From positions 1-48,635 of the forward strand of contig JAFDBG010000019.1 of assembly GCA_019313385.1 (NCBI GenBank): a DNA stretch of 48,635 nt. Direction: 5' to 3'. Made by a program: the position numbers and the translations under genes. Under the pieces are notes generated by a model. The model worked only from the letters and a program-made list of their open reading frames with translations, made no database searches and was not told the DNA's origin. This stretch comes from Deltaproteobacteria bacterium. GTDB taxonomy: Bacteria > Desulfobacterota > Syntrophia > Syntrophales > UBA2210. This document shows positions 1 to 39,129 of this stretch, piece by piece; the first letter of the stretch is position 1, and each line of letters opens with the position of its first letter.

Positions 1-56
1 GCTGCCAAAGCCAAGGCTAGGGGATATCGTACAACGAGAAACCTGATCACGATGAT

Positions 57-1835
57 TTACCTCATCGGTGGTAAACTTGAATTCAGACTACCCACATGAA
101 ACAGCGAGGAACCATTAATATTGTCCCGTTTGATCAAATCATGAACTTCCCTTAACCGAAGAGCCTGATCCTGATTTGTAATGCTGTGAAAAGAGATACC
201 GTTATCATACAGGAATTTATGGACAACAGAATAGTCTTCCCCGTCATCTTCAAAGGAATACAGTATGATATTTATGCCGGAATCGTGTATCTCCTTTACT
301 AATCTTATCACCTGATTGATAACAAGATTCGTATTCGTCTTTGTGGAAAAATAAGCGATATTCATAAGGACACGATCCCAGGGTTCGGGGTTCGGGGTTC
401 GGGGTTCAGGGTTCAGGTCTGCCTTGATCTGATTTTTTAAAATATTGGCACAATTATGGATAGCGTCGTAATTGTTCTCGTCTATTGCAAGGGTCTCTTG
501 AAAATGGGCAAGCGCATGATCCCAAAGGCCCAGTTTACCGAAGGCAGCAGCCATAAAATTGTGGACGAGCGCGTATTGTTTGTCACGGGATGATTCCTTT
601 TTCCATTTCATCCAGTCAATCTTCTTTTTGTTCCGGTCAACTATGTTGATCAGTTCCTGCATCCTGTTTTTATAGGTATGTTCTTCCATAACACGCCTGC
701 GGGCAGCCTCCTTCATGCGGCCCCTCAGTTCCGGTCGGAGCAGGTAGTATTCTATCTTCTCTCTTAGCTCTGACGGTGAATTAAAACAGTCTATCTCTTT
801 TCCCACTTCAAAATATCTGTCCAGGTCCTTCCTATAGTCCGTCAGGAGAAATCCTCCCGAGACCGGAGCATCGAAAAGCCTCTGGTTCAGAGCGGTTTTT
901 ACCTGAGGACGTGATATGTTGATATTGATTTTTGCCGTGTGATATATCTTCTTCAAGTCTCTAAAGTATGAAACCTCGGGAATGAAATTTTCTTTACTCA
1001 CAATATCCAGCCAGGCATCCTCTCCGCATACCTTAAAGTCTATTCCTTCCAGAGCCTCGATGTATGTTTTCCTGTGTTTAACTGTGGCCTCATGTTCCAT
1101 CCAGTTGTCAAAGAGCGCAATAAGGGAAGGATCTGTGGCCTTTTTTCCACACAAAAGATGGAGAATTTGGGTGGAAAATATGTCAACCGGCTGAAGCGTG
1201 GGATCGGCAAGATATAGATCAACCAGTTTATCTAAATCTATTTTCTGTTCGATTCCAAGCAGGGCAAGACATTTTTCCACCTTTTGCCTGTAAGACTTCG
1301 CCTTTTTAATCTCCGATCTTCCAACAAAGACGACATCTGCCGAAAATCTTGAAATTTCATCCTGATTCAATTCAACATTTTGAAAGCTTCGGGGATTTGT
1401 TGCGAGGGGCAGGGGAAATGCCAGATCTGTTCCCTTTTGCTTCACCCCTTCCACGTAGCTTGCGTCAAAAAGAAAAAAGAAGGTGAAGGGCTGCACGATA
1501 TCGTCCGTCCACTGGTCAAGATAAAAGGGCTTGTCAACATACCAGCACACCAGTGATATTTTGAGCAGGTTGCAGATTCTTACAATAATTCCGTCGTTGT
1601 CTAATCCAATGCCATTTATGGTAAATATCATATCCGGTTGGAAGGATACGATTTCAGTTATCCTGTCTATCAAGTTGAAAGACAAAAATATATCCGGATT
1701 CTGTGGATTTCTGACCAGACGTATAATCTTTATCTCATGGCCCAGCTCCCTGAATGCGCTGCTGCATTCCGGATCGATCAGACTGGCAGAATCTGAGAAG
1801 ATTACAATCCTTTTTTCCCCCATTTCACGCATCAT
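57..1835 (-). CDS. CgeB/DUF3880-like glycosyltransferase with C-terminal TPR segment and a trailing partial GT-like N-terminus
   Basis: 592-aa ORF. Glycosyltransferase-like motifs (FDAPVSGGFLLTDYRKDLDRYFEVGKEIDCF) typical of the CgeB-type C-terminal region, then a TPR-like stretch (ALAHFQETLAIDENNYDAIHNCANIL). Confidence 0.75.
   Translation of the reverse strand: MMREMGEKRIVIFSDSASLIDPECSSAFRELGHEIKIIRLVRNPQNPDIFLSFNLIDRITEIVSFQPDMIFTINGIGLDNDGIIVRICNLLKISLVCWYVDKPFYLDQWTDDIVQPFTFFFLFDASYVEGVKQKGTDLAFPLPLATNPRSFQNVELNQDEISRFSADVVFVGRSEIKKAKSYRQKVEKCLALLGIEQKIDLDKLVDLYLADPTLQPVDIFSTQILHLLCGKKATDPSLIALFDNWMEHEATVKHRKTYIEALEGIDFKVCGEDAWLDIVSKENFIPEVSYFRDLKKIYHTAKININISRPQVKTALNQRLFDAPVSGGFLLTDYRKDLDRYFEVGKEIDCFNSPSELREKIEYYLLRPELRGRMKEAARRRVMEEHTYKNRMQELINIVDRNKKKIDWMKWKKESSRDKQYALVHNFMAAAFGKLGLWDHALAHFQETLAIDENNYDAIHNCANILKNQIKADLNPEPRTPNPEPWDRVLMNIAYFSTKTNTNLVINQVIRLVKEIHDSGINIILYSFEDDGEDYSVVHKFLYDNGISFHSITNQDQALRLREVHDLIKRDNINGSSLFHVGSLNSSLPPMR
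380..414. repeat. Heptanucleotide tandem array inside the CDS: AGGGTTC GGGGTTC GGGGTTC GGGGTTC AGGGTTC
   Basis: Five consecutive 7-nt words read directly; encodes the NPEPRTPNPEP segment of the overlapping ORF on the minus strand. Confidence 0.9.
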
Positions 1836-3079
1836 GCAACGCCCATTTTAGCAAGAACTTCCAGGTTTTTTCTCGCAGTTTCGTGTGAGCGATCTATCTC
1901 GAGCACGCGTTTGAAACTATCTTCCGCTTTTGCGTAGTCACCTTCTTTGAAAAAAAGGATCCCCGAAGAAAAGTGCGCCTCGGCTACTTCAGGGTTTATT
2001 GACAAGGTCTTCTGAAACTCCCCGATCGCCTCATTATTTCTTCCCTGATTCTTCAAGAATGTTCCGAAATTATAGCGTATGATGTAGTGATCAGGGTTAT
2101 ATTTCAGGGCTTCGCGGTAGAGCAATTCGGCATCTGTCAGCCGTCCCTTCTTTGCGAGGATTGCCGCCAGATTATTGTAGGCCCCGACATGTCCTGAGTC
2201 GTATTTAAGAACAAGATTATAATAATTAACCGCCTCGGCAGATCTGCCCTGTGCCTCTGTGCACAGTCCCAGATTAAAAAGGATCATGGTATTTTCGGGT
2301 GCCAGCGACTGGGCCTTTTTCAGAAATCCTTCCGCCCTTTCATAATCTTTCAGTTCAATGCACCCGATCCCTTTATACAGGTACGAACGTGCATCAGCCG
2401 ACCCTTTGCCTGTTTCCATTTCATCAACTATACCAAGATACAGCCTTTCTTTCCGCTTTGCGCTATCCATATCACTGATATACCCGTAATGATGTATGGG
2501 AATGTCTGTCTCAACGATCCTCCCCCCTTTTTTCGAAATAGTATATTCAACTATCTCATGCACCTTTCCTTCAAAGTAAATATCCTTGTTTTTTCTGAAG
2601 AGTCTGACGTATGGAGAAGGAGTATATCCTGCACATCCTCTTGCCTCAGGACAGGGGGATTCAACCGCCAGCCATTCACACATTGTGGTTGTCTTCGAAT
2701 AAGTCCTTTGCACAAGCTTATATCCCGTAACATTCTTATCCGTTACAAGTTGTCGTATTTTCGCCAAATCATTAGGCGCCATTGCCTCATCGGCATCCAG
2801 AACCAGGATCCAATCACAGCTGGCATGTTTCAACGACACATTTCTCGCGTCAGCAAAATCGTTTTCCCAGGGGTGATATATCACCTTTGCCCCGAAAGAT
2901 TCCGCGATCTCAATCGTTTTGTCGGAAGAGCCGGTATCAACTATGATCATCTCATCAACCAGAGATTGGACACTTTTCAGACAATCGGGCAGACACGCTT
3001 CCTCATCTTTGACGATCATGCAGAGAGAGATTCCCTGTCTATTTTTCTTTTTCCTGCTCATTTTTGAATATCTTTTCAT
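1832..3079 (-). CDS. Family 2 glycosyltransferase with C-terminal TPR repeats
   Basis: SLCMIVKDEEACLPDCLKSVQSLVDEMIIVDTGSSDKTIEIAESFGAKV...LDADEAM, then several TPR units. 4-bp overlap with the downstream ORF. Confidence 0.9.
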   Translation of the reverse strand: MKRYSKMSRKKKNRQGISLCMIVKDEEACLPDCLKSVQSLVDEMIIVDTGSSDKTIEIAESFGAKVIYHPWENDFADARNVSLKHASCDWILVLDADEAMAPNDLAKIRQLVTDKNVTGYKLVQRTYSKTTTMCEWLAVESPCPEARGCAGYTPSPYVRLFRKNKDIYFEGKVHEIVEYTISKKGGRIVETDIPIHHYGYISDMDSAKRKERLYLGIVDEMETGKGSADARSYLYKGIGCIELKDYERAEGFLKKAQSLAPENTMILFNLGLCTEAQGRSAEAVNYYNLVLKYDSGHVGAYNNLAAILAKKGRLTDAELLYREALKYNPDHYIIRYNFGTFLKNQGRNNEAIGEFQKTLSINPEVAEAHFSSGILFFKEGDYAKAEDSFKRVLEIDRSHETARKNLEVLAKMGVA

Positions 3080-3420
3080 AACATTTGAAAATGGGTGTCA
3101 CGTTTTTGATTATCACTCAGAATAACAATGGAACATTTTTCCGGTTTTCAAACTGCCTGGATGTTAAAAACACCCGGTTTTGTCATTCCCGACCTGATTG
3201 GGGATTCAGTCTTTGGCTTATTTGCCCTTGGATTCCTGCTTCTATAAAAAAGCAAAAACAGTGCCAGCTACCCCAATTTATGAAGAAATATTTTTTGAAA
3301 TATAAACCGGCATAAATCTTGCTCTTGCTTAAGCTATGAAATGTGTGACTACTAACGCCGTCAGACTGAAACTGTTTAGGCTGAAGGCACTCGAATAGTT
3401 ACCAATTGAGAGGAACAGTC

Positions 3421-4494
3421 ATGTTATATCTCGCTCTGAACCCCGGCAATACCTTTGGATGGGGAGTTTGCAGCAAATATTTAATCAGTGAAGTGGGTAA
3501 GCTAAGGGAAATCAGGGTCGTTAACGACAGCAATATAGGACTGCTCACCGAGCCGAATCTACAGGGCAGAGTTTTTCACGCAATCGGCGATCATTCTCTT
3601 CGCAGGCAATACCCCATAAAGGGCGAAATAAACTATGGATACACATTCTTTGAAAACCTTTTAGAGGAAGATGCCCTCAAAAACGCCCGTTTTTATGATC
3701 TTGTATTCGCCGGTTCAACCTGGTGCAGGCAGAAATTGGAAGAAAAAGGAATATCGTGGGTTCAAACGTTGATCCAGGGAATTGACCCTGACCTCTTCTT
3801 CCCGTTAGAACTTGAAAAACCTTCCGGGAAGGACAAGTTTATAATATTTTCAGGTGGAAAATTTGAACTTAGAAAGGGGCAGGACCTGGTCCTTCGTGCC
3901 GTGAAAGTGCTACAGGATAAATATGACGACATCGTTCTGATGAACCTGTGGCAAAACCACTGGAAGTTCAGTTTTGAAACCATGAAGAGATCTTCCTATA
4001 TTAATTTTGTCGTTAATGGAGAAACATGGGAAGAAATTATAAAAAATATAATGGCTGAAAATGGGATAGATCCAGAGAGAAACATCGTTCTCCCTCCGAT
4101 AAACAACAATCAACTGAAAAACGTTTATGCGAACACGGATATCGGACTCTTCCCCAATCGCTGTGAGGGCGGTACAAATCTCGTACTAATGGAATATATG
4201 GCCTGTGCAAGACCCGTAATCGCATCATATAATACGGGGCACAGGGACATACTCACAAAGGACAATGCCTTGCTGCTTGAAGAGATGAAGCCATATGATG
4301 ATTTTGACGAGAAAGGTGAGATGTTGGGGGCCTGGCAGGAACCGGACCTGGATGAGCTGGTATCGAAACTGGAGTATGCGTATCTGAATCGAGATGGACT
4401 GGATTCAATCGCACGGCAGGCGGGAGAGGACATGAAGAGGTACACATGGCACGCTACCGCAAAAGACCTGTTGGAAAAGATTGAGCAGCGATGA
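3421..4494 (+). CDS. Group 1 glycosyltransferase
   Basis: FSGGKFELRKGQDLVLRAVKVL and LFPNRCEGGTNLVLMEYMACARPVIAS motifs. ATG at 3421 preferred over the upstream start. Confidence 0.85.
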   Translation: MLYLALNPGNTFGWGVCSKYLISEVGKLREIRVVNDSNIGLLTEPNLQGRVFHAIGDHSLRRQYPIKGEINYGYTFFENLLEEDALKNARFYDLVFAGSTWCRQKLEEKGISWVQTLIQGIDPDLFFPLELEKPSGKDKFIIFSGGKFELRKGQDLVLRAVKVLQDKYDDIVLMNLWQNHWKFSFETMKRSSYINFVVNGETWEEIIKNIMAENGIDPERNIVLPPINNNQLKNVYANTDIGLFPNRCEGGTNLVLMEYMACARPVIASYNTGHRDILTKDNALLLEEMKPYDDFDEKGEMLGAWQEPDLDELVSKLEYAYLNRDGLDSIARQAGEDMKRYTWHATAKDLLEKIEQR

Positions 4495-4513
4495 CATTTA
4501 CCTTGAATTGAAC

Positions 4514-4554
4514 AGCGAGCGCTAACCCCGCTGCTTGCGGCGGGGTTAGCGCTC
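4514..4554. terminator. Strong hairpin between convergent genes (candidate bidirectional terminator)
   Basis: GAGCGCTAACCCCGC ... GCGGGGTTAGCGCTC inverted repeat between the + strand GT and the - strand TPR gene. Confidence 0.6.
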
Positions 4555-4708
4555 GAATATAAAATAATATTTTCCTTGCCCCCGATAAAGGGGATAAGTG
4601 CGTTAACGAAATTATTTGCTGAAAGAAAAATACATAAAATAATTTCTAACTTACTAAACAATCGGAGATTCCCCGCAACTTGTTGCGGGGAGCTTCAATC
4701 CAATGACA

Positions 4709-6610
4709 TCAGTAAGCGGTATAAGATTTTTCTTCTATGATGTGAGAGCCTAACAATTCATTTATTTTTCTTTTAATGTTTGCCCTATGGTCATTTGTAA
4801 AATAAACACTGCGGGCGAGTTCAATAAAATTCTGATCATATCTTTTATGAAGTTCTTCTTTACGCAGGGCGTCTTCTGTATCCCATAATTTATTGTTTAC
4901 TTTCCATAGTTCTTCGATGAGTCCATCTAATTTTACGGACTTTGAGATCTGTTTTTCATACATTGATTGAAGAATTTCTAGCTCTGTCCTAACGTTCCCT
5001 AATTTTAAGGGATCAGTGATACGCTCAGCTTTTATTTTTAATATCACTAATTTATCAATAAATTCTCCAATTGACACCTCTACTTTGACAGAGGTTTGGA
5101 TCTTCTTGCCCGTTCCTGAAGATGGCGACACCTGTTTAGCACCCAATTTCGTTTTCATGATGTTTGACAAAGCTCCTATAACTTCTTTAATTACAGCGTT
5201 CCAATCCCTTGTTTCCCCTTGTCTGAACAACCTCATTGTCGGATACCAGGGAGAAATATTTTTTTCAAGAAACCAGCGCCAATCCGGCACGTAGGGAAGC
5301 ATGACCCAGACGGGAACACCCAGGGCACCGGCTAAATGGGCAATAGATGTGTCAATGGTGATAACCAGGTCTAGATTTTCCATCACAGCGGCGCTATCCA
5401 TAAAAGGACCGTGATTATCGTCAAAATCTGGGCCAAAATCGTGCAAAATAAAATCGCCTGGCATATTCTCCAGTTGTTCGGTGGGTACTCCTTTTTGAAG
5501 ACTATAAAGTTTGATTCCGTCCATTTTGGACAGGGGATAAAAATCCCTTAACGGGATAGACTTGGAAGATATGGTTTTACGTTGATGGTTTTTCTCGTAA
5601 AGGAAACTGGCCTGCCAGCATAATCCTATTTTGAAATTATTATTTTCTCCCAGCCTGGCATGCCATTGTTTAACCAGCTCTGAATCGGCCTTAATATACG
5701 GTATTTCAGCCAGTATGCTGCTCGGTTTTTCATTTAGTATCCATGGTAAAGACATGAGTGGCGCTTGTAGATCAAAGTCAGGGAAATTGTCTTTTAAAGA
5801 GATCACGGATGTGACATAGGCACAGCTTTTCAAAAGCGTGGTTAATGGATCCTGAGCTGCCGCGATTACAGTAGCGCCACTTTCTTTTGCAACTTTTGCA
5901 TAACGAATAAATTGTATGGTATCCCCGAGGCCTTGTTCTGCATGGAGTAAAATGGTTTTACCTGATAAATCGGACCCATCCCAGAGAGGCTGAGCAAATT
6001 CAAGGGATTTAAGCGCTTTAAGGTGCCTGCGCCACTCATATTCTTCCAGACCATCCTTGAAGTTCTCCAGCAGGAGCAATGCAACAGATCTGTTGAAGTG
6101 CGCTTCAATATAATCAGGACGCAATTCTATCGCTTTATTCTGAAACTCAACGGCTTCCCTGGGGCGACACAGGTCTTTAAGCATGTTCCCTGCGTTATGA
6201 TAAGCCTCAGCATAATTTGAGTCCAGGCAAGTTGCTCTTTGAAAATGCTTGAGAGCATTTTCAGATTTACCAAGATTTCTAAAGGCTAAGCCCAAATTAT
6301 TATGAAAAACGGGATCTTCCGGATTGATCTCAATCGCCTTTTTTATGTAACTTAGAGCCAGTTCATTGTTCCCTCCCTGAAGCGCCAGAATGCCAATTGA
6401 ATGAATTGCATAAGCGTTATCAGGATCATGGTGCAATATTTCAGCATAAACTTCTGCAGCCTGTTGGATATTGCCAGAAATGTGATATTTGATCGCCTGA
6501 TCCAAAGCAGCATCAATATTGAATACAAAGTTTTTTTTGCCTTTAAGGTTGGTTTGGTTTTTCATGTTTAGAAACAGTTTATCCCTTGCAGATCGTAGGT
6601 CAACTGGCAA
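4709..6610 (-). CDS. TPR protein with GT9/GT41-like glycosyltransferase domain and C-terminal DUF6165-like domain
   Basis: N-terminal TPR units; middle domain LVITIDTSIAHLAGALGVPVWVMLPYVPDWRW; C-term VSIGEFIDKLVILKIKAERITDPLKLGNVRTEL resembles DUF6165. Confidence 0.8.
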   Translation of the reverse strand: MPVDLRSARDKLFLNMKNQTNLKGKKNFVFNIDAALDQAIKYHISGNIQQAAEVYAEILHHDPDNAYAIHSIGILALQGGNNELALSYIKKAIEINPEDPVFHNNLGLAFRNLGKSENALKHFQRATCLDSNYAEAYHNAGNMLKDLCRPREAVEFQNKAIELRPDYIEAHFNRSVALLLLENFKDGLEEYEWRRHLKALKSLEFAQPLWDGSDLSGKTILLHAEQGLGDTIQFIRYAKVAKESGATVIAAAQDPLTTLLKSCAYVTSVISLKDNFPDFDLQAPLMSLPWILNEKPSSILAEIPYIKADSELVKQWHARLGENNNFKIGLCWQASFLYEKNHQRKTISSKSIPLRDFYPLSKMDGIKLYSLQKGVPTEQLENMPGDFILHDFGPDFDDNHGPFMDSAAVMENLDLVITIDTSIAHLAGALGVPVWVMLPYVPDWRWFLEKNISPWYPTMRLFRQGETRDWNAVIKEVIGALSNIMKTKLGAKQVSPSSGTGKKIQTSVKVEVSIGEFIDKLVILKIKAERITDPLKLGNVRTELEILQSMYEKQISKSVKLDGLIEELWKVNNKLWDTEDALRKEELHKRYDQNFIELARSVYFTNDHRANIKRKINELLGSHIIEEKSYTAY

Positions 6611-6658
6611 TCAAAAACCCATATCATTACGGGTCAAGCAAGTGGCCGTCTGGAGTTT

Positions 6659-7882
6659 TCAATGCCGGGGGACATTGGGGTCCCCAGCCTTTGAGAATAC
6701 TACGTTGAAAACATAATTGGTTTCAATGTAGTCATCCTTCGATAATCTTGTAAAAGATTGATTCTCATCATTCAACAGATAAGTCTCATAGCCCGACTGC
6801 TCCATATGGAGCCTTAGCTCTTTTTCACTCGTTCCCATTTGTTGTAGGGCGAAGCGATTGATTTCACATATAAGGTAAGGTACATTCTGTCTGGACATCA
6901 TGTTTGCTCCACCTTGAAGGATGGCGCATTCAGATCCTTCTGTGTCGATTTTAATTAGTTTTAATGAGTCAGGATCGTTGTCTTCAAACAGGCTGTCCAG
7001 TGTTGCGGTTTTGATATTTCTTACAACAGGATTAGCACGGCTGTTTTTGTTGAAGGGATGCAGGCCGACATTCCATAAGGCATGTCCACCATCGTTGTCT
7101 GTATTTACAAAGAACTGCTTTTGTTCGATCTTTGACCCTAATGCTACATTGAAAGTCTTGATATTTGAGAATTTATTTAAGGAGATGTTAGTTGTCAACC
7201 GATCAAAATTTGAGAGTTCCGGTTCAATGGCAAATACCTGCCCGCTGCTTCCAACTATTATGGATGCTAATAGAGAAAAATATCCGATGTGCGAACCTAT
7301 ATCTATAAAAGAATCACCCTCCCGCAAAGCGCTCGCCAAAAAATGAGATGTTCCCGGTTCATAAAGTTGTCCCTTGTTTAAGCAGTTCCACATTATTTTC
7401 TGGCTAAATTGAGTAAGATCCAAAGATATCTTGAGGCTATATTGACAGGAGTTGAAACTCACTGACAATTCAGCGATTTTACTGTCTTGGGATCCGCTCA
7501 TATCACGATCGCTTGAACGAAATCTTTGAAGGTCATTCGTTATCATCTCAATGTCATTTGCTGGCAGACAGTGTCGATATTCTTCCAGCACAGCTTCAGC
7601 TTTAACCAAGTTGTTGATGGCAATATAATTTGCTATCAGGTTAAACGCTGCATTTGAATTATTTTTGTCTTTTTGCAGTGCAACCAGAAATAATTGAATC
7701 GCTTCCCCGTATCTGCCCAATCTGTTGAGTATAACGCCTTTATCATTAAGCACAAACACATTGTCAGGATCTTTTTCCAGAAGAGACTCAAAGATCTCAA
7801 GAGCTTCATCTATTCTTCCATGCTGAAGATGTTTCTCTCCTCGCATTATTTCCTCAGTAAACTGATTCGCTTCCATGCTCAT
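6659..7882 (-). CDS. FkbM family methyltransferase with N-terminal TPR repeats
   Basis: TPR N-term; REGDSFIDIGSHIGYFSLLAS ... FAIEPELSNFDRL ... LKLIKIDTEGSECAILQGG typical of FkbM. Confidence 0.88.
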   Translation of the reverse strand: MSMEANQFTEEIMRGEKHLQHGRIDEALEIFESLLEKDPDNVFVLNDKGVILNRLGRYGEAIQLFLVALQKDKNNSNAAFNLIANYIAINNLVKAEAVLEEYRHCLPANDIEMITNDLQRFRSSDRDMSGSQDSKIAELSVSFNSCQYSLKISLDLTQFSQKIMWNCLNKGQLYEPGTSHFLASALREGDSFIDIGSHIGYFSLLASIIVGSSGQVFAIEPELSNFDRLTTNISLNKFSNIKTFNVALGSKIEQKQFFVNTDNDGGHALWNVGLHPFNKNSRANPVVRNIKTATLDSLFEDNDPDSLKLIKIDTEGSECAILQGGANMMSRQNVPYLICEINRFALQQMGTSEKELRLHMEQSGYETYLLNDENQSFTRLSKDDYIETNYVFNVVFSKAGDPNVPRH

Positions 7883-7904
7883 TTCCCCATATTATTAATA
7901 GAAA

Positions 7905-8300
7905 TCATGCTTTTTGCTGTATGAATGCCCAATAGGTATCTGGATCGACAAAATCGAATTCTTGATCTCTGAAATCCAAAAAAGATTGATCCATCTGATA
8001 AGCTTGATAGCCTTTTCGCCTGCATACTGAACAGTCTTCACTATTTAATGTTATACTTGTTGGGTTAAAATCCTTCTCTGTAAATAATTCCAGGGCAAGG
8101 CCCTGGCCGCAGCCTACATCCAAAATTTTACTGTTTGATGGCAAAAAATACTTATCGTTGAAGTAATCAACCATCTGTTCTGTTATAGATAAATGGGGTT
8201 CGCTGATGGGCTCAGGGTAGGTTTCTTCGGCGATCTTTGAGAAAAATGATTGCAATTTGTCGATCTTTGATTGGTTTAACTTCATGTCGTTTCGTCTCAA
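7905..8300 (-). pseudogene. Truncated class I SAM methyltransferase (N-terminal motif I region only)
   Basis: ILDVGCGQGLALELFTEKDF motif I; the ORF ends after EFDFV with a short unrelated tail, lacking the remaining fold. Confidence 0.6.
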
Positions 8301-8336
8301 CTTCTATCGGAACTATTCAGCCACCGATCTATCCGC

Positions 8337-9674
8337 TTAAATGCCAATCCTTGCCAGACCCGCAAGGGCATCCGTGTCATTAGGATCTTGTTCAAGGAGT
8401 TCGGAGTAAAGACCAATGGCAACCTCACTTTTTTTAAGAAAGAGATATATTTTTGCCAGAGCGAGCCATATCCCCCTTTCCACATCAGGCGAGTTCTCTT
8501 TCGCCTTTTCAAAAAAGATCATGGCATCTTCAAATTTCCCAAGTTTTGACATCAGAAATCCAAGCACGCGCAACGTATCAACATTGCCCGGAGCCGCCTT
8601 CAGCGCACTTTTATAGGCATCCGCCGCTTCGTCCAAACGGCCAATGCCTTCCAAAGACTTGCCGTAATAATAAGGAAGAAGGCTTTTCACGCTCAAGAGC
8701 ACGGGACGACCCTCAATTTCTATGCCAAGTTCAGCCGCCTTTCTCAGGCAGGGGATTGCCTCTTCATACCGCTCTAATTGTGTAAAAACGGCCCCTAAGA
8801 CATAGCAGAGAAATCCGCTGTCTGGAAATTCAGAGATGCCGACCTGAAGGTTTTTAACAGCCATATCCCCTTCTCCCAGCCGGAGATAACTCTCGGCAAT
8901 CATGGAGAATGAACTCTTGTAAAAACTCTCTTTCTTTCCGCCAGCCATGGCCGTTTCAAGACACTTTATGCAGCAGCGGTAATCTTCAATCCCAAAATAG
9001 CTCTGCGCAAGATGATAATTTTCTGACGGCGTCCTGTCTCTGTCTTTACTTGCATTGAGAAGAATATGCAGATTCCTTTCAGCCTTGGCCTTAATGGCCT
9101 CCTCATCTTCGTACCCTGTATGAAGAATATGAACATCTTCTTCCACCACCTTTATCCCAAGCCTGCTTAAGGATGAAGCAATCTGCTCATGGACACAGCC
9201 TTCAAAACATGCGCCTTTCATATTGGGAAAGATCCTGAGCTGATAACTGACAGCCGTCTCGCCGTCTGTTTTCCGGTTCAGGATACGCAGCATGCAGGCC
9301 AGATTTCCGGAAGAGGGAAGTCGTTCTTTCAGACGTTTCAGCCCCTGCCTCGCCTCAGGAGAGATGCGGTCATCGGCATCAAGCCACAGAATATAATCTC
9401 CCGTTGCATGCCTGGTCGATTCGTTTCTCGCAGCGGCAAAGTCATCACACCAGGGGAAGTCAAATACCTTTGCCCCGAATCCTTCGGCTATCTTCCTGGT
9501 ATCATCGGCGGAACCGGTATCCACAACAATGATTTCATCAACAGCAGGCTTAACCGACCGGATACAATCCGCAATATTTCCGGCCTCATTCCTGACAATC
9601 ATGCAAAGCGACAATCTCATCGGCCGCCTTTTCCCGATCCTTGGTTTAGACTTCCTGCTCCTTTTTTTCATCAA
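8337..9674 (-). CDS. Family 2 glycosyltransferase with C-terminal TPR repeats
   Basis: RLSLCMIVRNEAGNIADCIRSVKPAVDEIIVVDTGSADDTRKIAEGFGAKVFDFPW...LDADDRIS plus TPR units. Confidence 0.9.
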   Translation of the reverse strand: MMKKRSRKSKPRIGKRRPMRLSLCMIVRNEAGNIADCIRSVKPAVDEIIVVDTGSADDTRKIAEGFGAKVFDFPWCDDFAAARNESTRHATGDYILWLDADDRISPEARQGLKRLKERLPSSGNLACMLRILNRKTDGETAVSYQLRIFPNMKGACFEGCVHEQIASSLSRLGIKVVEEDVHILHTGYEDEEAIKAKAERNLHILLNASKDRDRTPSENYHLAQSYFGIEDYRCCIKCLETAMAGGKKESFYKSSFSMIAESYLRLGEGDMAVKNLQVGISEFPDSGFLCYVLGAVFTQLERYEEAIPCLRKAAELGIEIEGRPVLLSVKSLLPYYYGKSLEGIGRLDEAADAYKSALKAAPGNVDTLRVLGFLMSKLGKFEDAMIFFEKAKENSPDVERGIWLALAKIYLFLKKSEVAIGLYSELLEQDPNDTDALAGLARIGI

Positions 9675-9772
9675 ACTTCCTCTTTCAAGAGTCGTGAGGC
9701 TAAGACTTCTCAGTAAGTTCAGACAAGACCCTTCTGTGCAGGGGCGGTTTGAAACCTTTTCCCTGTGGCACT

Positions 9773-10066
9773 TTAATCAATAATTTCTCTCAGCCACTCG
9801 GGAAAAACAGACCATGGAACCGCGATATTTTCTCCGGGCAAATTCCTTGTTTTATCAATCCTGCACACAATTATCCCCTGCTGTGAAGCATCGCCGCCAG
9901 CAATCTCTTTGAAGCGGTTAAGTCCTTTCACATGGTTGAATGAAGGGGTCGAAGTCAGCTTTATTTCTATTGGCCATAGTTTCCCCTTTGCCTGAATAAT
10001 CAAGTCAACTTCAAGCCCGCCCTGAGATCTCCAGGGAAAGGCTGAGGGTCTTTTCCCGCAAAACAT
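9773..10066 (-). pseudogene. C-terminal fragment of a DUF4143-type ATPase
   Basis: WRSQGGLEVDLIIQAKGKLWPIEIKLTSTPSFNHVKGLNRFKE matches the nuclease-like C-term of AAA/DUF4143 proteins; N-terminal ATPase absent. Confidence 0.6.
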
Positions 10067-10118
10067 GTCAATTTTATTCTTCAGCGTCTACGCTTTAATC
10101 TCTTTTCTCCCTGTGCCT

Positions 10119-13100
10119 TTACGCCTTTACGTGAGATCTCTTTCCATTCTGCGCCTCTTCCAGCCTCTCCAATTCCCAGAGTATGACCTTGATATCTTCC
10201 TGTCCGCCACCCAGCCTGAGCGATTCCTCATAAGCACCTCTGGCGTTTCCAAGTTCTTCCATCTGAATAAAACAATTCCCCAGGGAATTTAAAAGGCCTA
10301 TCTCTTTTGGTTTCAAACTCAATGCCCGTTCAAACCATTGTGCAGCTTTCAGATAATCCTTTTTAGCCTCTTCGCATTTGCCAAGATTCTCTATCGATTC
10401 AAAATAATCAGGATCTATTTCCAAGACACGAATAAAGCGGGAAGCCGCCTCATTCATCTTCCCCTCTTGAAATGCAATTACACCCAGGTTGTTAAGTGGT
10501 TCAACAAGCCGAGGGTCTCTTGAACATATCTGCTCCAAAATGCCTTTAGCGCCTTCAATGTTACCAGACTGAAAGAGCTCCTCCGCTTTCCGGTTATGGA
10601 CTCCTATCAAGTCAGTCCCATCATCTGAATAAAACCGGCGAATAATATCTCCCTTTGCCGCCGCTTTTCTGTACATTGATAGTATCCGTTCATTTTCTTT
10701 TGCCTGACGCTTGCTGTTGCTGTGTTCAACGCTTTCCGGCGATTTAAGATACAACCCCAGCATATCGCGGATATGCAAAAAGCTGTTTGTCTGTGAAACC
10801 CTCAGCCAGAATTCATAGTCTCCGGACGTAACCAGCGTATCGTCAAAATAACCGTATTCGTCATGCAGGGTGCGTCTCCACATAGGTTGCGGACCCATAA
10901 AGCATCCCTTTCCCAACAGGTGATCTCTGCTCCAGTCAAGCCAGCGATAACTGCCTACAGGGGTGCATTTGTTAAATGTTTCATTCTCATTTTCCGTGAT
11001 AATGACGTCCGCATAGACCAAGGCAATGTCAGGCTTGCCCTCCAGCGCCTTCACCATTTGTTCACAGGCGTCTGCGCGACGGCGGTCGTCGGTGTTGGCA
11101 TTGGTTATGTATTTCCCTGATGACGCCTTTACGCCTCGATTCCAGGCGGCGTAGACGGTTTCACGCTGATCGGTTCTTATATATTTAATGTTGGAGTACT
11201 TTTCCTGAAATTCTTTGACAATCGCTTCTTCATTCTGCTCTGAACCGCTGTTGACAACGACAATTTCCAGTCTGTCAGCAATGGTCTGCGCTTCCAGATC
11301 TTCGAGACAGCCTCGGATAAAACGTTCGGAGTTGTAAGTGGAGACTATGGCGGAGACAAGATATTCACAACCTTCATCGCTCACCTCAACTGCTCTTTTA
11401 TCCTGTGAATCTGCCAGTGACCTGGCTATTTCTTCATCGTCTGGATTCTGACACAAATAGGAAGAATAGATGTTCCTTGCATCTTCATATTTTCCCAGGG
11501 ATTTAAAAAGGTCGCCACAATTCAAGATCGTATCCCTGTCATTCGGATCTATTTCCAGGGCCCTTGCAAAATGCTCCACGGCTTTTTGAACCTCTCCGGC
11601 CTGCCAGTACAACACACCAAGGTTGTTATAGGCAGTTGCAAAGTTCGGATTTATCTCTATAGCTTTTGTAAAAACATTTAATGCGCCGTCGGTATCGCCT
11701 TTGTTAAACAGGTCTTCGCCTTGCTGGTTTTCGTGAATACCAGACGGAATTTCACCGATCGAAATAATTTCGACAGAATCGATCTTTAAAAACGCATCAA
11801 AAATTTTCCACTTTGGCTGCCCTGCCCCCTGATTCCACAAAGAACTCCCCTGCATAAATACACGGGGCCTTTCTGAGGATTTTTCAAGCGTTTGACGTAC
11901 AGCCTCTGTAATTACTTCCGGCGCAATATCTTTAACGCAGTGAGTTGTTTGATACTTACACCGCCAATTACAGTCATAACAGTCAAGAGGCAAGCAAACT
12001 ACAGAGGTTAACGGCGAATAAGGTATAAACCGTCCGAAGTGGCCGCCACCGAGGAGGATAACATTCGGAATCCCGACGGCACATGCGATATGAGCCGTTC
12101 CTGTATCTGCTCCGACAGCCAGACGACAACGTTTTAATAATGCCGCTGTCTGACGTAATGTTGTTTTCCCGCATAGATTTATTGTATGTTGTCTGTTTGA
12201 ATTGAGGGCTTCCTGATTAATGGAGTAGTCCGATTCTGAGCCAAATGCGATAATAGTAAGATTTCTGTCTTTATAAATCTCTGATAATGCCAAATTATAC
12301 TGAGTATATACTTTCGCTTCAAATTGTGCTCCAACAAACAAAGCAATTGTTTTCCTCGGCTGCAAGTCATTCGACGTGAAGAAATCATCGGCGAACTTTT
12401 CATCCTCGGAAGTTGTCCACATAATCGGATGTAAGGATGGCACGTCGATTCCAAGACCTTTCAGGAAATCTCTATGCCGCTCAAGTTCCGGTTTGTGCTC
12501 TTCGCTGCTTGGTAAGAGTCTGGAATAAAATTGGTTGTGCCTGTCACGAATTTCCGCGGGAATGTTACAAAGATTGCCGTCAAACGCAATCCGTTCCCTG
12601 GCACCGCTCTCTATCGCAAATACATCTGTTAATGGTTCGCGCGAATAAACTGAGTTCAAGGCAAGATCAGCATTTAACACCCGCAATCGCTGGACAATAC
12701 TCGATCTATATTTTTCGTCCTGTAATGCACGCTGTCTGTCAAATGTAATGATGTCATCCACAAAAGGGCATATTTCATAAATCTCAGCGATATGCTTCTG
12801 GCAAACGACAGTGATCTTTGCAGTCTTATATTTTTCCCGAATATATGGCAGCATCGATGCGGCAAGGATATTGTCGCCAATTGAATCGGTGCGGATGTAT
12901 AATACACTTCCGGCTTCTGCGTAATGCGAGACAAGCGCCCTGTATGCCCCGAAACCACCATCAATCCATTGTTTCAAAAACTTCCCATTGTCTAAGGCCC
13001 TCTGCTCCAGTTCCGCTATCTTTTCTCTGTTAACAACAGCTTCATGTGGCCTGCACAGCACCCTTTCTATCAACCCTTCCATTTCTTGCGAAGAATTGTT

Positions 13101-15401
13101 CAAATATAACAGATGATCAAGGCCGAGTTCCCGGGCCATCAGTTCCGTCTTTTTTTCGCGAACTATGGGGATGCACGGTATCCCGAGAATGGCGCAGAAA
13201 ACCAGGATGTGCATCCTCATCGTGATAACAAGTCTACACTCAGACAACTTTTCAGAAAATTCAAGCGGAGAAACATATTCGCAAAAAACATCACCGCCCA
13301 GACCAGAGCCGACTACCTGTTGCAGGAGGGGGTAATCATATGCAGACTCTTTACGTGTTTCACTGCAAAGCCCCAGCACTTCAATATCAGAGTATTTCTT
13401 CTTCAGTTTTGTTAACGCATGGGATATGGCGTCGATATGAGGATACTGGTTCGATAATCCTTCATTGACGAGACTCAGGCCGATAACGTTTTTTGAAAGT
13501 CCTTCCTTTTCCCGTTGTTTCATGGAGTAGTCGGCCGCGAAGGCGGCATCGGCGCAGACAAAAAGACGCTCCGGGTCGATAGACAGTGAGGAGGCAATCT
13601 TTTTGTCTTCCCCCGAACGCACGGTAATAATATCCAGAAATTCATTATAATAATTCCTTATCAGGTCTTCGGCCTGTTGTGATAAGATGTCGCTTGTGCC
13701 AACCGCGAGCATACATACCGGTTTTTTGAGATCAACCGCGGTTTTTATAAGTCCGGCGCAATAACCCAGTGGATAGCCAAGGTTTGGTTTTTCACTTATA
13801 AGGGTGGCTCCGCCGAGGACTACATGCGTTGACCATTGAAGGGCCCGGACGGCGCCTTCATTGTTAAACGGCCACACTTTTTCAATATCAACAGTGTTCT
13901 TTGTAAATTCAGGCGAGAAAGAAATTACGCCAATCTCTGCTTCAGGTAAATGCGTTCTCGTTGACCTTATTAAACCAGACAGGATAGCGTCATCACCTAT
14001 ATTGCCGGCTCCGTAGCCTGTTCCGCAAAACAATATCCTCCTTGGGATACCCGCCTCATCCTCAATGCGTCCGGGCTCTAATATGTCGGGTTTAAAAACG
14101 ACATCTGCTTTCATGGGCGGCAATCCGGTACTTTGACATTTTACGTCTGACAGTACCTTGTCGATGCAATGTTTCTGCGTAGCATGGATCGACCCTCCAT
14201 CCAGGTTGAGAGATTCGCCCCGGCTCGACAAGCTCGAGATGTTATTTTTGATATTGGACAATTCAGCGTGGTAGTCCTCTGAGGAGATCCTGCCAGAACA
14301 GGGGGGAATGTTTTCCTTTCTGGTTCCTAAAATAATTGAGCGTAGATACGAGGTACGCTTTTTATAATCTAATTGAATGTATTGCGATCTCCCAATACAG
14401 GATGGATCCCTTTCGATCAATTCCAGGGAATTGCCCTTTTCCAGTCCTTCAACAACCTTTTTGCCTGCCTCGGTATGGGCAAGAATAATTGAGTAACCGT
14501 CCTGATTTCCTTTATATTCATCGAGCCACGCGTCAGCGCATGCAATGTCGGAATGCTCAGCCGCAAAGTCATTACAGATCAGACAGGGAAACGGGCGGAG
14601 AGAAAAAGAGTCCCAGATTTTTTGGAAAGACGATTTGGGCCATGGGAATTCCTTGCGCTCTTTGTTCAGAAGCTCTATCGAATATGAGAAGGGGGACCAT
14701 CCCTTTGCCCTGTATCGCACCTCTCCTACGCTGTCGAGATCAATCCCGGACATCCTGAGGGCATCCTCTGTCGCAGCATGATAGACATTGTGCCCGTCCA
14801 TTATCCCGATAAGAAGTTTGACCTTTTTAAAAAGGGGCCCTCCCTTTGATAACATATTTCGGACAGAGGCCATCTGGCAGGGTAACCCGACGACTGCAAT
14901 CTTCTTTATGGCAGGATTGTGCGCCGCTATTCGTAGTCCATTTCCAATCTCAGTCATCCCGTAAATGGATTTGGCGCCGTACATGACATCTCTTTTACTG
15001 GTGGCCAGTATACTTTTCCCATGCAGGGGACGTTCGGGATCGGGCACGTTGATTACGGCGCCATCCAGGGTTCCCCTTTCCATCAGTTCAACGAGGATCC
15101 CTGAAACAATCCCACCCGAAGCGCTGTTCCTGCGAATCTCAGGATTAGTGGAGTGACCCGTCCAAACCTTTTCCACATTACCTAAAAGTGACTCACCTCC
15201 TATATGCTTTTTACCGGAGCAGATATCTAGGCACAACCCGCACCGCTTACATTTGTCGGTATCGATTACAGGTTGAAAAATGCCGGGTGAAAACACATGC
15301 ATTTCTATGGCGCCCTGGATACAAACAGCCGCGCACACTCCACATCCGTGACAAGAGCCCGCCTTCACAACCACTGAAACATTGAGTCTATGATGCCCCA
15401 T
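10119..15401 (-). CDS. Giant multidomain protein: 4Fe-4S ferredoxin + FrhB-type + polysaccharide pyruvyl transferase + GT9 + TPR + GT2 + TPR
   Basis: Single 1760-aa ORF. CHGCGVCAAVC/CKRCGLCLDIC; CLICNDFAAEHSDIACADAWL; ILFCGTGYGAGNIGDDAIL; VLYIRTDSIGDNILAASMLPYI and AVGADTGTAHIACAVGIPNVILLGG; TPR; VSAIVSTYNSERFIRGCLEDLEAQ; TPR. Confidence 0.88.
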   Translation of the reverse strand: MGHHRLNVSVVVKAGSCHGCGVCAAVCIQGAIEMHVFSPGIFQPVIDTDKCKRCGLCLDICSGKKHIGGESLLGNVEKVWTGHSTNPEIRRNSASGGIVSGILVELMERGTLDGAVINVPDPERPLHGKSILATSKRDVMYGAKSIYGMTEIGNGLRIAAHNPAIKKIAVVGLPCQMASVRNMLSKGGPLFKKVKLLIGIMDGHNVYHAATEDALRMSGIDLDSVGEVRYRAKGWSPFSYSIELLNKERKEFPWPKSSFQKIWDSFSLRPFPCLICNDFAAEHSDIACADAWLDEYKGNQDGYSIILAHTEAGKKVVEGLEKGNSLELIERDPSCIGRSQYIQLDYKKRTSYLRSIILGTRKENIPPCSGRISSEDYHAELSNIKNNISSLSSRGESLNLDGGSIHATQKHCIDKVLSDVKCQSTGLPPMKADVVFKPDILEPGRIEDEAGIPRRILFCGTGYGAGNIGDDAILSGLIRSTRTHLPEAEIGVISFSPEFTKNTVDIEKVWPFNNEGAVRALQWSTHVVLGGATLISEKPNLGYPLGYCAGLIKTAVDLKKPVCMLAVGTSDILSQQAEDLIRNYYNEFLDIITVRSGEDKKIASSLSIDPERLFVCADAAFAADYSMKQREKEGLSKNVIGLSLVNEGLSNQYPHIDAISHALTKLKKKYSDIEVLGLCSETRKESAYDYPLLQQVVGSGLGGDVFCEYVSPLEFSEKLSECRLVITMRMHILVFCAILGIPCIPIVREKKTELMARELGLDHLLYLNNSSQEMEGLIERVLCRPHEAVVNREKIAELEQRALDNGKFLKQWIDGGFGAYRALVSHYAEAGSVLYIRTDSIGDNILAASMLPYIREKYKTAKITVVCQKHIAEIYEICPFVDDIITFDRQRALQDEKYRSSIVQRLRVLNADLALNSVYSREPLTDVFAIESGARERIAFDGNLCNIPAEIRDRHNQFYSRLLPSSEEHKPELERHRDFLKGLGIDVPSLHPIMWTTSEDEKFADDFFTSNDLQPRKTIALFVGAQFEAKVYTQYNLALSEIYKDRNLTIIAFGSESDYSINQEALNSNRQHTINLCGKTTLRQTAALLKRCRLAVGADTGTAHIACAVGIPNVILLGGGHFGRFIPYSPLTSVVCLPLDCYDCNWRCKYQTTHCVKDIAPEVITEAVRQTLEKSSERPRVFMQGSSLWNQGAGQPKWKIFDAFLKIDSVEIISIGEIPSGIHENQQGEDLFNKGDTDGALNVFTKAIEINPNFATAYNNLGVLYWQAGEVQKAVEHFARALEIDPNDRDTILNCGDLFKSLGKYEDARNIYSSYLCQNPDDEEIARSLADSQDKRAVEVSDEGCEYLVSAIVSTYNSERFIRGCLEDLEAQTIADRLEIVVVNSGSEQNEEAIVKEFQEKYSNIKYIRTDQRETVYAAWNRGVKASSGKYITNANTDDRRRADACEQMVKALEGKPDIALVYADVIITENENETFNKCTPVGSYRWLDWSRDHLLGKGCFMGPQPMWRRTLHDEYGYFDDTLVTSGDYEFWLRVSQTNSFLHIRDMLGLYLKSPESVEHSNSKRQAKENERILSMYRKAAAKGDIIRRFYSDDGTDLIGVHNRKAEELFQSGNIEGAKGILEQICSRDPRLVEPLNNLGVIAFQEGKMNEAASRFIRVLEIDPDYFESIENLGKCEEAKKDYLKAAQWFERALSLKPKEIGLLNSLGNCFIQMEELGNARGAYEESLRLGGGQEDIKVILWELERLEEAQNGKRSHVKA

Positions 15402-15529
15402 AATATTTTCCCTTAAAAATCTTTCTGTTCAAGAACCCGGGAAGCCTTTCAGTCACCTCTGTATTCAGTGCGTAACCTTCAGGGCTCTGCCTGTATTTTT
15501 CATGTATTTGTTGAACACAGCAATTCCAT

Positions 15530-16230
15530 CTAAAGTGCGAGGGTGACAGGAAAAGATTGCAATCCTGAGCTTTTCACGAATTTGTCACCTGTCTCGATTT
15601 GTTTTTGCGCCTCGTGGTGTGGTCGTTTAATCTTGGTCGCATTAATTTTCCGGTCGACTGCGTCATCAAAAGCCTCTATGACATGATCGACTTTTATCGC
15701 CTCGAAACAGGGGCTAGTCACATCCCGTAAGTAATTTATCTCGGCACAGCCACGGTGTGTTTCCCGTAAGGAGGCGCTGACCGGGACAACGTACTTGTGG
15801 TCGGCAGCGTGGGTCTCCGAGGAAAATGGTCCGAAAAGCACAACACCCGGAATCCCCATGGCGCCCGCTGTATGCGCAATACCCGCATCGACGGACACAA
15901 AAGCGTCGACGTGAGATAATACCGCTATTGTGTCCTGGCAATCGTAAATAAGGGAAGAAGGATTTACAACCGGCGCGTTTAATGAATGGATTTTTTCTTG
16001 CATGACACTTGAGGTTTCTTCGTCCGTAAACAGGACCGCCTGGCAGGTGTTACGTAATCTTCCGACAATTTGATCAAAGAGCTCTGCCGGGGCATCCATA
16101 TGATGAAACTCGGATTTCCAGTTTACACAGAGCAGTTTTTTGCCCGTTTCCTTCCTTATTTGATCGAACAGTGGCACGAGTTTCGAAACCTTTCGAGGGT
16201 TAGGTTCGAGCGCAGGCAGTTTATCCCCAG
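15530..16230 (-). pseudogene. C-terminal part of a GT9/heptosyltransferase-like protein, 5' end replaced
   Basis: KLLCVNWKSEFHHMDAPAELFDQIVGRL and AFVSVDAGIAHTAGAMGIPGVVLFGPFSSETHAADHKYV; the N-terminal GT9 half is absent. Confidence 0.7.
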
Positions 16231-16358
16231 GAGTTAAAGGAATTATACAAAACAAAAGCCCGGACGTTATAGCCCTGCCTGACCAGCTCCTCAGCAAGAT
16301 GAGAGCCGATGAATCCGTCAGCGCCGGTCACCAAAATTTTTTTGTTATTTAAACTCAC
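16221..16358 (-). pseudogene. NAD-dependent epimerase/dehydratase N-terminal fragment
   Basis: VSLNNKKILVTGADGFIGSHLAEELVRQGYNVRAFVLYNSFNSWG then stop, with the GT9 fragment starting in another frame at the same point. Confidence 0.75.
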
Positions 16359-16899
16359 AATCGTACTCTTTCTGTTATTGCATCGAAACAGAGGGTCCTT
16401 CTTCAAAAAATTTGGCTGGCAATTTGCTCTATGCCTCCAACCTAAAGGCAAAAGGCCATTCCTCACACCTTCCGGGTGAGCTCCGCTCCCCTGGGTTACA
16501 TGCCAGAAGGCGTCCCAACTTGTTGAATATTAAGTTTTGAATAAGCCTCCAAGGATCGCAAAGTACTCAGAAACTGCACCATCACCGTTGAAGTTCCAAA
16601 TCAATTTTAGCCCTAAGTGATGCAACTTATGTGCCAGAGAAGGTGCGGCAGCCAATGCTCATTAAAATCAGAGTGTTAAGCCAAATCTAGAGAGAACAGT
16701 ATGTAAAGGTAGAGAGAAAAGGTTAGAATCTTGACACAGGGATAGGGAAAAAATGACCTTGGAGATATTGTGACAACCCTTGGATAGCAAGGCCATATAA
16801 CCATCTCAAGGGCCTCAGCCTGAGCAACCTACCCTGCCAGGTTCATGCTTGTGACCGACATGAGCCCATTTTACCGACAGCAGGAGATAATCTCCCCAC

Positions 16900-17062
16900 A
16901 TTAAAGACAGGACTCGTGTACTTTGAAAAATGCAGGGTTCGATCAGAAACTCGCCAGGGTATCTTCGAATACGTCGAGATATTCTACAATCGTATCAGGA
17001 GACATTCATATTCGGGGTATGTTTCTCCTGTTGACTTTGGAAGGCTGTTTATGGCAACTTAA
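16900..17062 (+). pseudogene. IS3-family transposase (OrfB) C-terminal remnant
   Basis: Manual translation gives LKTGLVYFEKCRVRSETRQGIFEYVEIFYNRIRRHSYSGYVSPVDFG, the typical C-terminal end of IS3-group OrfB. Confidence 0.8.
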
Positions 17063-17275
17063 CCAGGCATCTATTACTTCAGGGAAAAATCATGCTGGCC
17101 TGCCTGAGAATGGAAGACATGAACAGGATCTGAACGGAATGATTATTTTGCCTTCTGTGGTGTTGAGAGGCGTTGTATGGGAAATACAGGGACACTTCCC
17201 ATATTTATATTGACAGTTTGTTAAGAGAAAAAAGTGAAGTAATATGGGAACTCCCCGTATTAAAGGGGGAAATCA

Positions 17276-17852: not shown

Positions 17853-18021
17853 ACAGATATAGTCAAATAGTTGAGTGGTTGAGTTAGCAGATAATAGCTA
17901 TAATCTCAGCAAGTTACAAATATAAAAATGGTTGATGTCCAATTGTTTTGCTAAAACCAAATATGCCCGTGAATTTAACCACTTAACTACTCAACAATTC
18001 AACCACTTAACGAGGTCTGGA
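17853..18021. repeat. Dispersed imperfect-palindrome element, copy 1 (8-nt word arms)
   Basis: CAGATATAGTCAAATAGTTGAGTGGTTGAG ... TTTAACCA CTTAACTA CTCAACAA TTCAACCA CTTAACGA GGTCTGG; homologous copy at 41517-41687. Confidence 0.9.
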
Positions 18022-20215: not shown

Positions 20216-21178
20216 ATGGCCACGGAGATCACCGCTCAGGAGCTTAACACTGAGCTATTCACTAATGAGAAGATCGGAGAAATCAGAGAAACAGTCGGGG
20301 ACGGAATGGCGATCAACGCCCTTTCGGGAGGCGTCGATTCATCTGTGGTCACGATGTTAGGGCACAGGGCCCTGGGAAAACGTCTCCGGTCTGTCTTTGT
20401 CGAGAACGGCCTCATGCGCGAGGGAGAGGCCCAGCAGGTTGTGGATTTTTTTCAGAAACTTGGTGTTACTGTCGAGGTGGTCGATGCACGCGAAGAGTTC
20501 TTCGCCGCTCTGGCCGGAGTCACTGATCCGGAAGAGAAGCGCGAGGCGATTACCCAGTCCTTTTATCAAAACGTGTTCGGACGCATCGTCAGGGAAAGCG
20601 AAGCGAAATACCTTCTCCAGGGGACTATCCTGACCGATATCGACGAGACCGTCGCGGGGATAAAACGGCAGCACAATGTCTTCGAGCAGCTCGGAATTGA
20701 CCCACAGGAGGCTTTCGGCTACCGCATCCTCGAACCGCTTATCCAGCTTCGTAAGGACGGTGTTAGAAAGATTGGCAAGGCCCTCGGGCTTTCGGTCGAA
20801 CTGTTCAAACGCATCCCCTTCCCCGGGCCGGCCCTCGCGGCACGTGTGATAGGAGCGGTAACCCCGGAGCGCATCGAGACGGTCAGAAAGGCGAACTCGG
20901 TTATCGAGCGACTGCTCAAGGACACCGGCGCCTTTCAATACATGGCAATCCTTCATGAAGACCGCGTGACCGGCATGCGCGACGGAAAGCGCGACTTCGG
21001 TCAGCAGATCGAGGTGCGCTGCTGGGACAGCGTCGACGCACGGACGGCAACGCCAACGCGGCTTCCATTTGAAATCCTCGAAAAACTCGCCGACGAGATT
21101 ATACGAGAGGTTCCGGGTGTTGTCAGTGTTACATACAATATAGCATCAAAGCCCCCTTCAACGATCGAGGCAATTTGA
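20216..21178 (+). CDS. GMP synthetase-like ATP-pyrophosphatase and dimerisation domains, no glutaminase domain
   Basis: MAINALSGGVDSSVVTMLGHRALGKRLRSVFVENGLMR ... LQGTILTDI ... RIPFPGPALAARVIG ... IASKPPSTIEAI. Confidence 0.88.
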   Translation: MATEITAQELNTELFTNEKIGEIRETVGDGMAINALSGGVDSSVVTMLGHRALGKRLRSVFVENGLMREGEAQQVVDFFQKLGVTVEVVDAREEFFAALAGVTDPEEKREAITQSFYQNVFGRIVRESEAKYLLQGTILTDIDETVAGIKRQHNVFEQLGIDPQEAFGYRILEPLIQLRKDGVRKIGKALGLSVELFKRIPFPGPALAARVIGAVTPERIETVRKANSVIERLLKDTGAFQYMAILHEDRVTGMRDGKRDFGQQIEVRCWDSVDARTATPTRLPFEILEKLADEIIREVPGVVSVTYNIASKPPSTIEAI

Positions 21179-33707: not shown

Positions 33708-33829
33708 AGCGTTTTATTATTGATGTTTCGATGCGTCGAATCGTTTTATCAGAACTCTCATAAGTGTTTTATGACTATCACTATTTATATAGGAAATCTA
33801 TATCAATCATATTATTATTTCTTCAAGGA

Positions 33830-33899
33830 AGGAAGAAGTAACTTTCAGACTTCAAATCCGGTGGGGGGTACCAACCCTTAAAAAGTTAAAGAAGGTTAA
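33830..33899. repeat. selC anticodon-arm-like direct repeat, copy 1
   Basis: ACTTTCAGACTTCAAATCCGGTG...AAAAAGTTAAAGAAGGTTAA; paired with 39056-39126; shares GACTTCAAATCCGGTG with the tRNA-Sec anticodon arm. Confidence 0.8.
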
Positions 33900-33912
33900 C
33901 GTTGACGCATTC

Positions 33913-34027
33913 GTAAAAAGTCAGAAAACGCCATTTTTCGTCATTCCGGCGGAAGCTGGAATCCAGTAAATTCAACAGCTTCTGGATACCGGATCAAGCC
34001 CGGCATGACTGTTTTGGGACTTTTTAC
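33913..34027. repeat. Short MITE-like palindromic element
   Basis: Terminal GTAAAAAGTC ... GACTTTTTAC around a CATTCCGGCGGAAGCTGGAATCCAG...CTGGATACCGGATCAAGCCCGGCATGAC core. Confidence 0.65.
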
Positions 34028-34055
34028 TACACCATCAACTGTGAATGTCCTTTTT

Positions 34056-34922: not shown

Positions 34923-34967
34923 ATACTTTTTCTGTTTTTTCCAGGTAGGTTGATAATTTCTGTAATT

Positions 34968-38810: not shown

Positions 38811-39055
38811 GATGATCAGACCATAATCCCCCCAGGCTACAGCCGTTCAAAAGCATATCCGATACGTTAAAGATCCAAAATATGCTAACCTACTAACTCC
38901 ATTATGGTATATTGTCAAGGGATGTTATAGTGAGACTTTCAATCGGTAATAATCTATTTTTCCCTTTGGAATAGATGGACTGGAATGGTTGAATCTCTTG
39001 CAGATAAGCTCAAATCCTGAAGTGGATAATATTAATAAGAAGATCACTCTCTCAG

Positions 39056-39126
39056 GAAGAAAGAAATAACTTTCAGACTTCAAATCCGGTGTGGGCGCTA
39101 ACCCTGAAAAAGTTAAAGAAGGTTAA
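39056..39126. repeat. selC anticodon-arm-like direct repeat, copy 2
   Basis: ACTTTCAGACTTCAAATCCGGTGTGGGCGCTAACCC...AAAAAGTTAAAGAAGGTTAA; close to selC GGACTTCAAATCCGGTGTGGGGCGCTAGAACC. Confidence 0.8.
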
Positions 39127-39129
39127 AAT

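Follow-up and report, generated by a model that had tools for sequence, protein, structure and literature searches.

The locus and its domain organization

The window (the whole stretch of DNA analysed, 48,635 nucleotides) carries on its minus strand a single ORF that runs from 15401 to 10119. It starts with ATG, spans 1760 codons (1760 aa) and has no internal stops, and the purine-rich AAGGGAAA lies a few bases 5′ of the start codon. GC content is continuous along the ORF (0.44–0.49; 0.46 for the window), and the plus strand across the same interval is closed by many stops. The earlier note on this DNA had reported an uninterrupted ORF at 10119–15401, which was borne out exactly; it left the strand unstated, and we add it here. 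Its proposed order of ferredoxin, FrhB, polysaccharide pyruvyl transferase (PPT), GT9, TPR, GT2 and TPR was recovered by Pfam with all domains above cut-off (Table 1), and the motif it had noticed in the GT9-type domain is present as DTGTAH.

Table 1. Coordinates of features in the glycan island and of the domains of the 1760-aa protein (positions in the window).
Feature	Position	Strand	Basis
CgeB-type glycosyltransferase (Glyco_trans_1_2)	57..1835	minus	Pfam
GT2-TPR protein	1832..3079	minus	56% identical over 97 aa to gene in flagellin-linked G349 locus
GT4-type glycosyltransferase	3406..4494	plus	
TPR protein with DUF6165, possible GT-B part	4709..6610	minus	TPR and DUF6165 tested; GT-B from DTSIAHLAG motif alone
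TPR-FkbM methyltransferase	6659..7882	minus	
Truncated methyltransferase (MetW-like, 131 aa)	7905..8300	minus	
GT2-TPR protein	8337..9674	minus	63% identical over 101 aa to gene in flagellin-linked G349 locus
Whole protein, mosaic	10119..15401	minus	single 1760-aa ORF
TPR block 2, residues ~1603–1750	10152..10595	minus	Pfam
GT2 domain, residues 1347–1583	10653..11363	minus	Glycos_transf_2 1350–1478 (2e-24); NTDD 1436, SGDYEFW 1526
TPR block 1, residues 1228–1330	11412..11720	minus	Pfam
GT9-type domain, residues 831–1180	11862..12911	minus	Glyco_transf_9 959–1145 (9e-24); TDSIGDN 838, DTGTAH 1099
Polysaccharide pyruvyl transferase (PPT), residues 467–747	13161..14003	minus	PS_pyruv_trans 7.8e-28; R729-M-H731; K751 just outside
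FrhB_FdhB C domain, residues 166–330	14412..14906	minus	Pfam 4.2e-26; GLPCQ 172, CLICNDF 273
FrhB_FdhB N domain, residues 79–152	14946..15167	minus	Pfam 8.8e-15
2x[4Fe-4S] ferredoxin, residues 16–61	15219..15356	minus	Fer4_7 8.8e-7; CHGCGVC 17, CKRCGLC 51
Block 81% identical in DNA to L009	10147..12893	minus	DNA comparison
GT9 remnant, C-terminal part	15530..16297	minus	profile positions 104–215/247 only
Synteny breakpoint versus G006	17259..17259	.	synteny comparison

The ORF lies in the leftmost 17.26 kb (window 1–17258), an island of GTs, GT2-TPR proteins, a TPR-FkbM methyltransferase and gene remnants. This segment is absent at the matching place of the same-genus genome G006, the flank of which is ~93% identical. 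At 15530–16353 the GT9 remnant follows the opening ~35 codons of an epimerase/dehydratase-like gene (ILVTGADGFIGSHLAEEL), an arrangement suggestive of a deletion that joined the two. A possible IS transposase remnant was seen by eye beside the island edge (16400–17150). The genes that surround the 1760-aa ORF in the window include no recognised flippase, polymerase or exporter. Given the truncated genes in the island, the ORF could have arisen incidentally through rearrangement.

Several further features were observed elsewhere in the window. A methyltransferase, a CDP-alcohol phosphatidyltransferase, an aminotransferase and a nucleotidyltransferase stand in a row at 34056–37613 (read by eye); they resemble a head-group cluster for a phospholipid or phosphonolipid, in which a PEP mutase was not noticed. 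Dispersed repeats that are 82–89% alike occur at 17854–18021 and 41519–41687 and at 33826–34040 and 39054–39126. They gave no Rfam match, and copies of the element near 33.9 kb are also found in L101 of a same-genus genome. A selenocysteine tRNA was identified by ARAGORN and Rfam (40027–40124, minus), and a 46-bp repeat lies beside it at 39980–40025 and again at 39119–39164. The GMP synthase-like ORF at 20216–21178 (320 aa) apparently comprises the ATP pyrophosphatase half only, without the glutaminase part, as judged by eye.

Family assignment of the catalytic units

The PPT unit scored 98.6 bits against PF04230 (gathering threshold 25.3) and covered profile positions 1–277 of 280. CsaB and WcaK carry the same domain. 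In CsaB the pattern is R-x-H followed by K at +20 (R306, H308 and K328), and docking or mutation has linked these residues to PEP binding (PMC10435577). R729, H731 and K751 have the corresponding spacing here, as judged by the motif rather than by alignment to CsaB. The unit differs from CsaB in being embedded in a 1760-aa chain and in falling below the cut-off of the CsaB equivalog TIGR03609 (107.9 against 213.1 bits; 5.9e-31). A search of solved structures with the PPT segment returned no sequence matches, even at E 1.

The N-terminal units belong to the FrhB/FdhB beta subunit superfamily (PF04422 and PF04432, with Fer4), and PDB entries 8riu, 7np8 and 3zfs align across the full Fer4-FrhB or FrhB unit. 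The Fer4-FrhB layout and conserved cysteine motifs are held in common with FpoF, the N-terminal part of Fsr and 8riu, aligned over residues 11–331, but here the score lies below every equivalog cut-off (69 against 331.5 bits for the F420 hydrogenase FrhB equivalog TIGR03289) and the unit is linked to a PPT, not to a hydrogenase or sulfite reductase.

Membership of GT9 is supported by PF01075 (84.6 bits, gathering threshold 22) together with the DTGTAH motif at residue 1099. The LPS heptosyltransferase equivalogs were not reached (II, 77.5 against 134.6 bits; I, 61.9 against 185.3 bits), and a role as LPS heptosyltransferase was dropped for this reason. The GT2 domain matched PF00535 at 86.7 bits (gathering threshold 23.3) and carries the acidic donor motif NTDD at residue 1436. 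Domains of such profile strength would not be expected in the ORF by chance.

The Fer4-FrhB-PPT cassette occurs on its own in other genomes

The same order of the three N-terminal units was found in stand-alone fusions of 918 aa (G145), 822 aa (G358) and 879 aa (G520). Unlike the protein described here, these lack any GT or TPR fusion. They sit amid exopolysaccharide-type genes (judging from the ORF sequences, GTs together with ABC exporters or a flippase-like protein). Other FrhB matches are mostly ~420 aa long; at eight such loci the 1.5-kb flank contains a PPT-like ORF of its own, so that FrhB and PPT are also recurrent neighbours as separate genes. Since the pair is either fused or separate but neighbouring at multiple loci, FrhB and PPT are probably functionally coupled. 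When plasmids were searched with the N-terminal 800 residues, no match reached 80% query coverage, and the matches listed were FrhB-only. Our literature search found nothing joining FrhB or F420 with a polysaccharide pyruvyl transferase, and to our knowledge the role of the FrhB unit in glycan loci is unexplained.

The GT9-TPR-GT2-TPR core is conserved and joined to a different partner in another family

Residues 831–1753 are 80% identical to part of a 1203-aa ORF in a Syntrophobacterales bacterium of another family in the same order (G033; locus L009, also L031, JAGGSD010000290.1). The shared block begins at residue 831, the start of the GT9-type domain. At the DNA level identity is abrupt at both ends (12893 and 10147), and the flanking DNA differs upstream and downstream. 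In G033 the core is preceded not by a pyruvyl transferase but by a methyltransferase-like domain, which matches Methyltransf_3 weakly though above cut-off; the contig begins inside the ORF, and the N-terminus is seen there only in part. The comparison shows exchange of the N-terminal module at about residue 831, the core edge. Purifying selection acts on the core (dN 0.126, dS 0.70, dN/dS 0.18 overall; 0.09 for GT2 alone). By its domain content the 1760-aa protein is a mosaic of two blocks, Fer4-FrhB-PPT and the GT9-TPR-GT2-TPR core.

Relatives of the core are modular and often lie beside flagellin genes

GT2 or GT9 units of the core recur in modular ORFs of 455–3614 aa in the phylum, and their module partners vary case by case. 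The largest, elsewhere in the phylum, holds the entire core at 47% identity inside a 3614-aa ORF (G258, L054:3547–14391) with radical SAM, several GT2 and GT4 units ahead of the core as well as GT9 and TPR units; a flagellin gene lies ~3 kb away. Others are a methyltransferase-GT9 ORF of 678 aa (G305), a 1956-aa ORF with several GT2 and TPR units (G095), and ORFs of 2606 and 2696 aa on two MAG contigs with GT2, GT9, methyltransferase and TPR units. The multi-GT, TPR-rich ORFs (G258 and G095, which are flagellin-linked, and L009) resemble the 1760-aa protein in their GT9-TPR-GT2(-TPR) or TPR-GT2 modules, at 47–80% identity, but they carry extra modules (methyltransferase, radical SAM, GT4 and further GT2) and none was found with Fer4-FrhB-PPT.

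We examined 15 core-relative loci chosen solely by similarity to the 1760-aa protein. Flagellin lies within ~8 kb in seven of them (G095, G258, G305, G419, G349, G503 and G394). Several of the others are on contigs of 4–11 kb, too short to show a neighbour. Genomes carry one to three flagellin genes, so that such adjacency is expected by chance at ~1% of loci; the binomial P is ~3e-11 for the mean rate and 2e-9 for the highest (flagellin counts of two were assumed for G326 and G394). Linkage of homologues to flagellin genes, one feature looked for in flagellin O-glycosylation systems, is present in this family.

The host genome lacks flagellin

The host genome (G000) comprises 2.15 Mb in 138 contigs and is 93.6% complete. 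Neither flagellin (PF00669) nor FlhA (PF00771) was found in it; both are present in G001, G004 and G033. Flagellin is therefore not the obvious acceptor now, and we rejected it as the current acceptor in this genome. The nonulosonic acid synthase NeuB, which is common, though not universal, in flagellin O-glycosylation systems, was also not found in G000. Type IV pilin-like N_methyl proteins are present.

The complete chain was found only in the window

No full-length homologue that includes the N-terminal cassette was found in 156 genomes of the order or 396 genomes of the phylum, and none was found in phages. Genome contigs likewise yielded none, in a search by core alignment and two short peptide patterns that is blind to distant or N-terminal relatives. 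The join of Fer4-FrhB-PPT to GT9-TPR-GT2-TPR was seen solely in the window. The earlier note's view that all these activities in one chain are unusual holds for the combination, but the protein does not stand alone: it is one case of module swapping in a multi-domain GT family, and Fer4-FrhB-PPT is itself a recurrent fusion. In the open-access literature we found no family with a conserved GT9-TPR-GT2 core and varied N-terminal chemistries, encoded by ORFs that reach 3614 aa and frequently adjoin flagellin.

Discussion

We consider it reasonably probable that the ORF encodes a mosaic surface-glycan enzyme, in which an exopolysaccharide-type cassette has been joined in frame to the core of a flagellin-linked modular GT family of the same phylum. 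Because G000 has neither flagellin nor FlhA, the acceptor here would be something other than flagellin, or the gene would be stranded. Among the closest characterised systems is FlmG of Caulobacter crescentus, a 596-aa protein of TPR and GT-B that is needed for flagellin modification (PMC7591256). FlmG is similar in fusing a TPR region to a GT domain and in acting in cytosolic flagellin glycosylation, and many core relatives adjoin flagellin; it differs in having one GT-B domain rather than GT9, GT2 and the redox and pyruvyl units, and in that flagellin is missing from G000. The earlier note had pictured a self-contained assembly line that performs redox chemistry on, pyruvylates and elongates a glycan, possibly docked by its TPRs to a protein acceptor. 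Retained catalytic signatures, the dN/dS of the core, the FlmG precedent and the flagellin-linked relatives favour that picture, but "self-contained" is unproven and the expected acceptor is absent.

The flagellin neighbourhood also bears on a rather unlikely alternative, namely that the enzyme builds a lipid-linked glycan of exopolysaccharide or O-antigen type. Every domain would then act on an undecaprenyl-linked glycan, the TPRs would merely tether enzymes and no protein would be glycosylated. Such a role would suit the exopolysaccharide-type loci in which Fer4-FrhB-PPT fusions occur, the lipid-linked disaccharide that is the characterised CsaB substrate (PMC10435577) and a host without flagellin. 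It fits poorly with core relatives that adjoin flagellin far more often than chance and with the lack of a recognised flippase, polymerase or exporter around the ORF.

The state of the island raises the question of an artefact or dead product. The chain could be an assembly chimera, or a deletion in a decaying island could have fused genes in frame. A draft assembly of 138 contigs, a second copy of the complete chain not having been found, and the nearby GT9 remnant with its epimerase start, truncated methyltransferase and synteny break at 17259 are compatible with this. We regard it as unlikely, however, because the joins fall in frame between intact domains, with no stops in 1760 codons, and an independent MAG (G033) shows a join of this kind at the identical core edge, with another partner; GC is continuous and the catalytic motifs are kept. 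Production of two or more polypeptides by internal initiation or proteolysis, the ORF being a one-frame operon, seems very improbable. The core and the N-terminal cassette do occur separately in other genomes, but residues 800–840 contain no in-frame ATG or GTG and only a single TTG, at residue 809.

If the ORF does encode a mosaic surface-glycan enzyme, the whole chain would act in the cytosol. By analogy with FlmG, the TPR blocks may hold the acceptor (in the relatives a protein, for example flagellin) or partner enzymes. GT9 and GT2 would add one sugar each, and the pyruvyl transferase would form a pyruvate ketal from PEP. The substrate of the electron-transfer step carried out by the ferredoxin-flavin FrhB unit would be a sugar precursor or a linked sugar. 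With the core unchanged, module exchange would alter the resulting decoration. Candidates for the present acceptor are a type IV pilin, some other surface protein and a lipid-linked glycan; alternatively, the gene may have been stranded recently. Our best reading is that the gene derives from a flagellin-island GT family and was apparently recruited by, or stranded in, a non-flagellated host.

More tentatively, and with doubt outweighing confidence, the family may follow an NRPS-like combinatorial glycan logic, with interchangeable units (pyruvyl and methyl transfer, redox, radical SAM and several GTs) set on TPR spacers in a single chain. Recombination at module edges would rewrite the glycan in one step, and a complete redox-pyruvylation cassette would have been gained here. 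The GT9-TPR-GT2 core family would provide a direct test of module-by-module glycan assembly and of the pace at which surface decoration changes. The presence of an FrhB unit and a pyruvyl transferase in one chain makes the role of FrhB in glycan loci testable.
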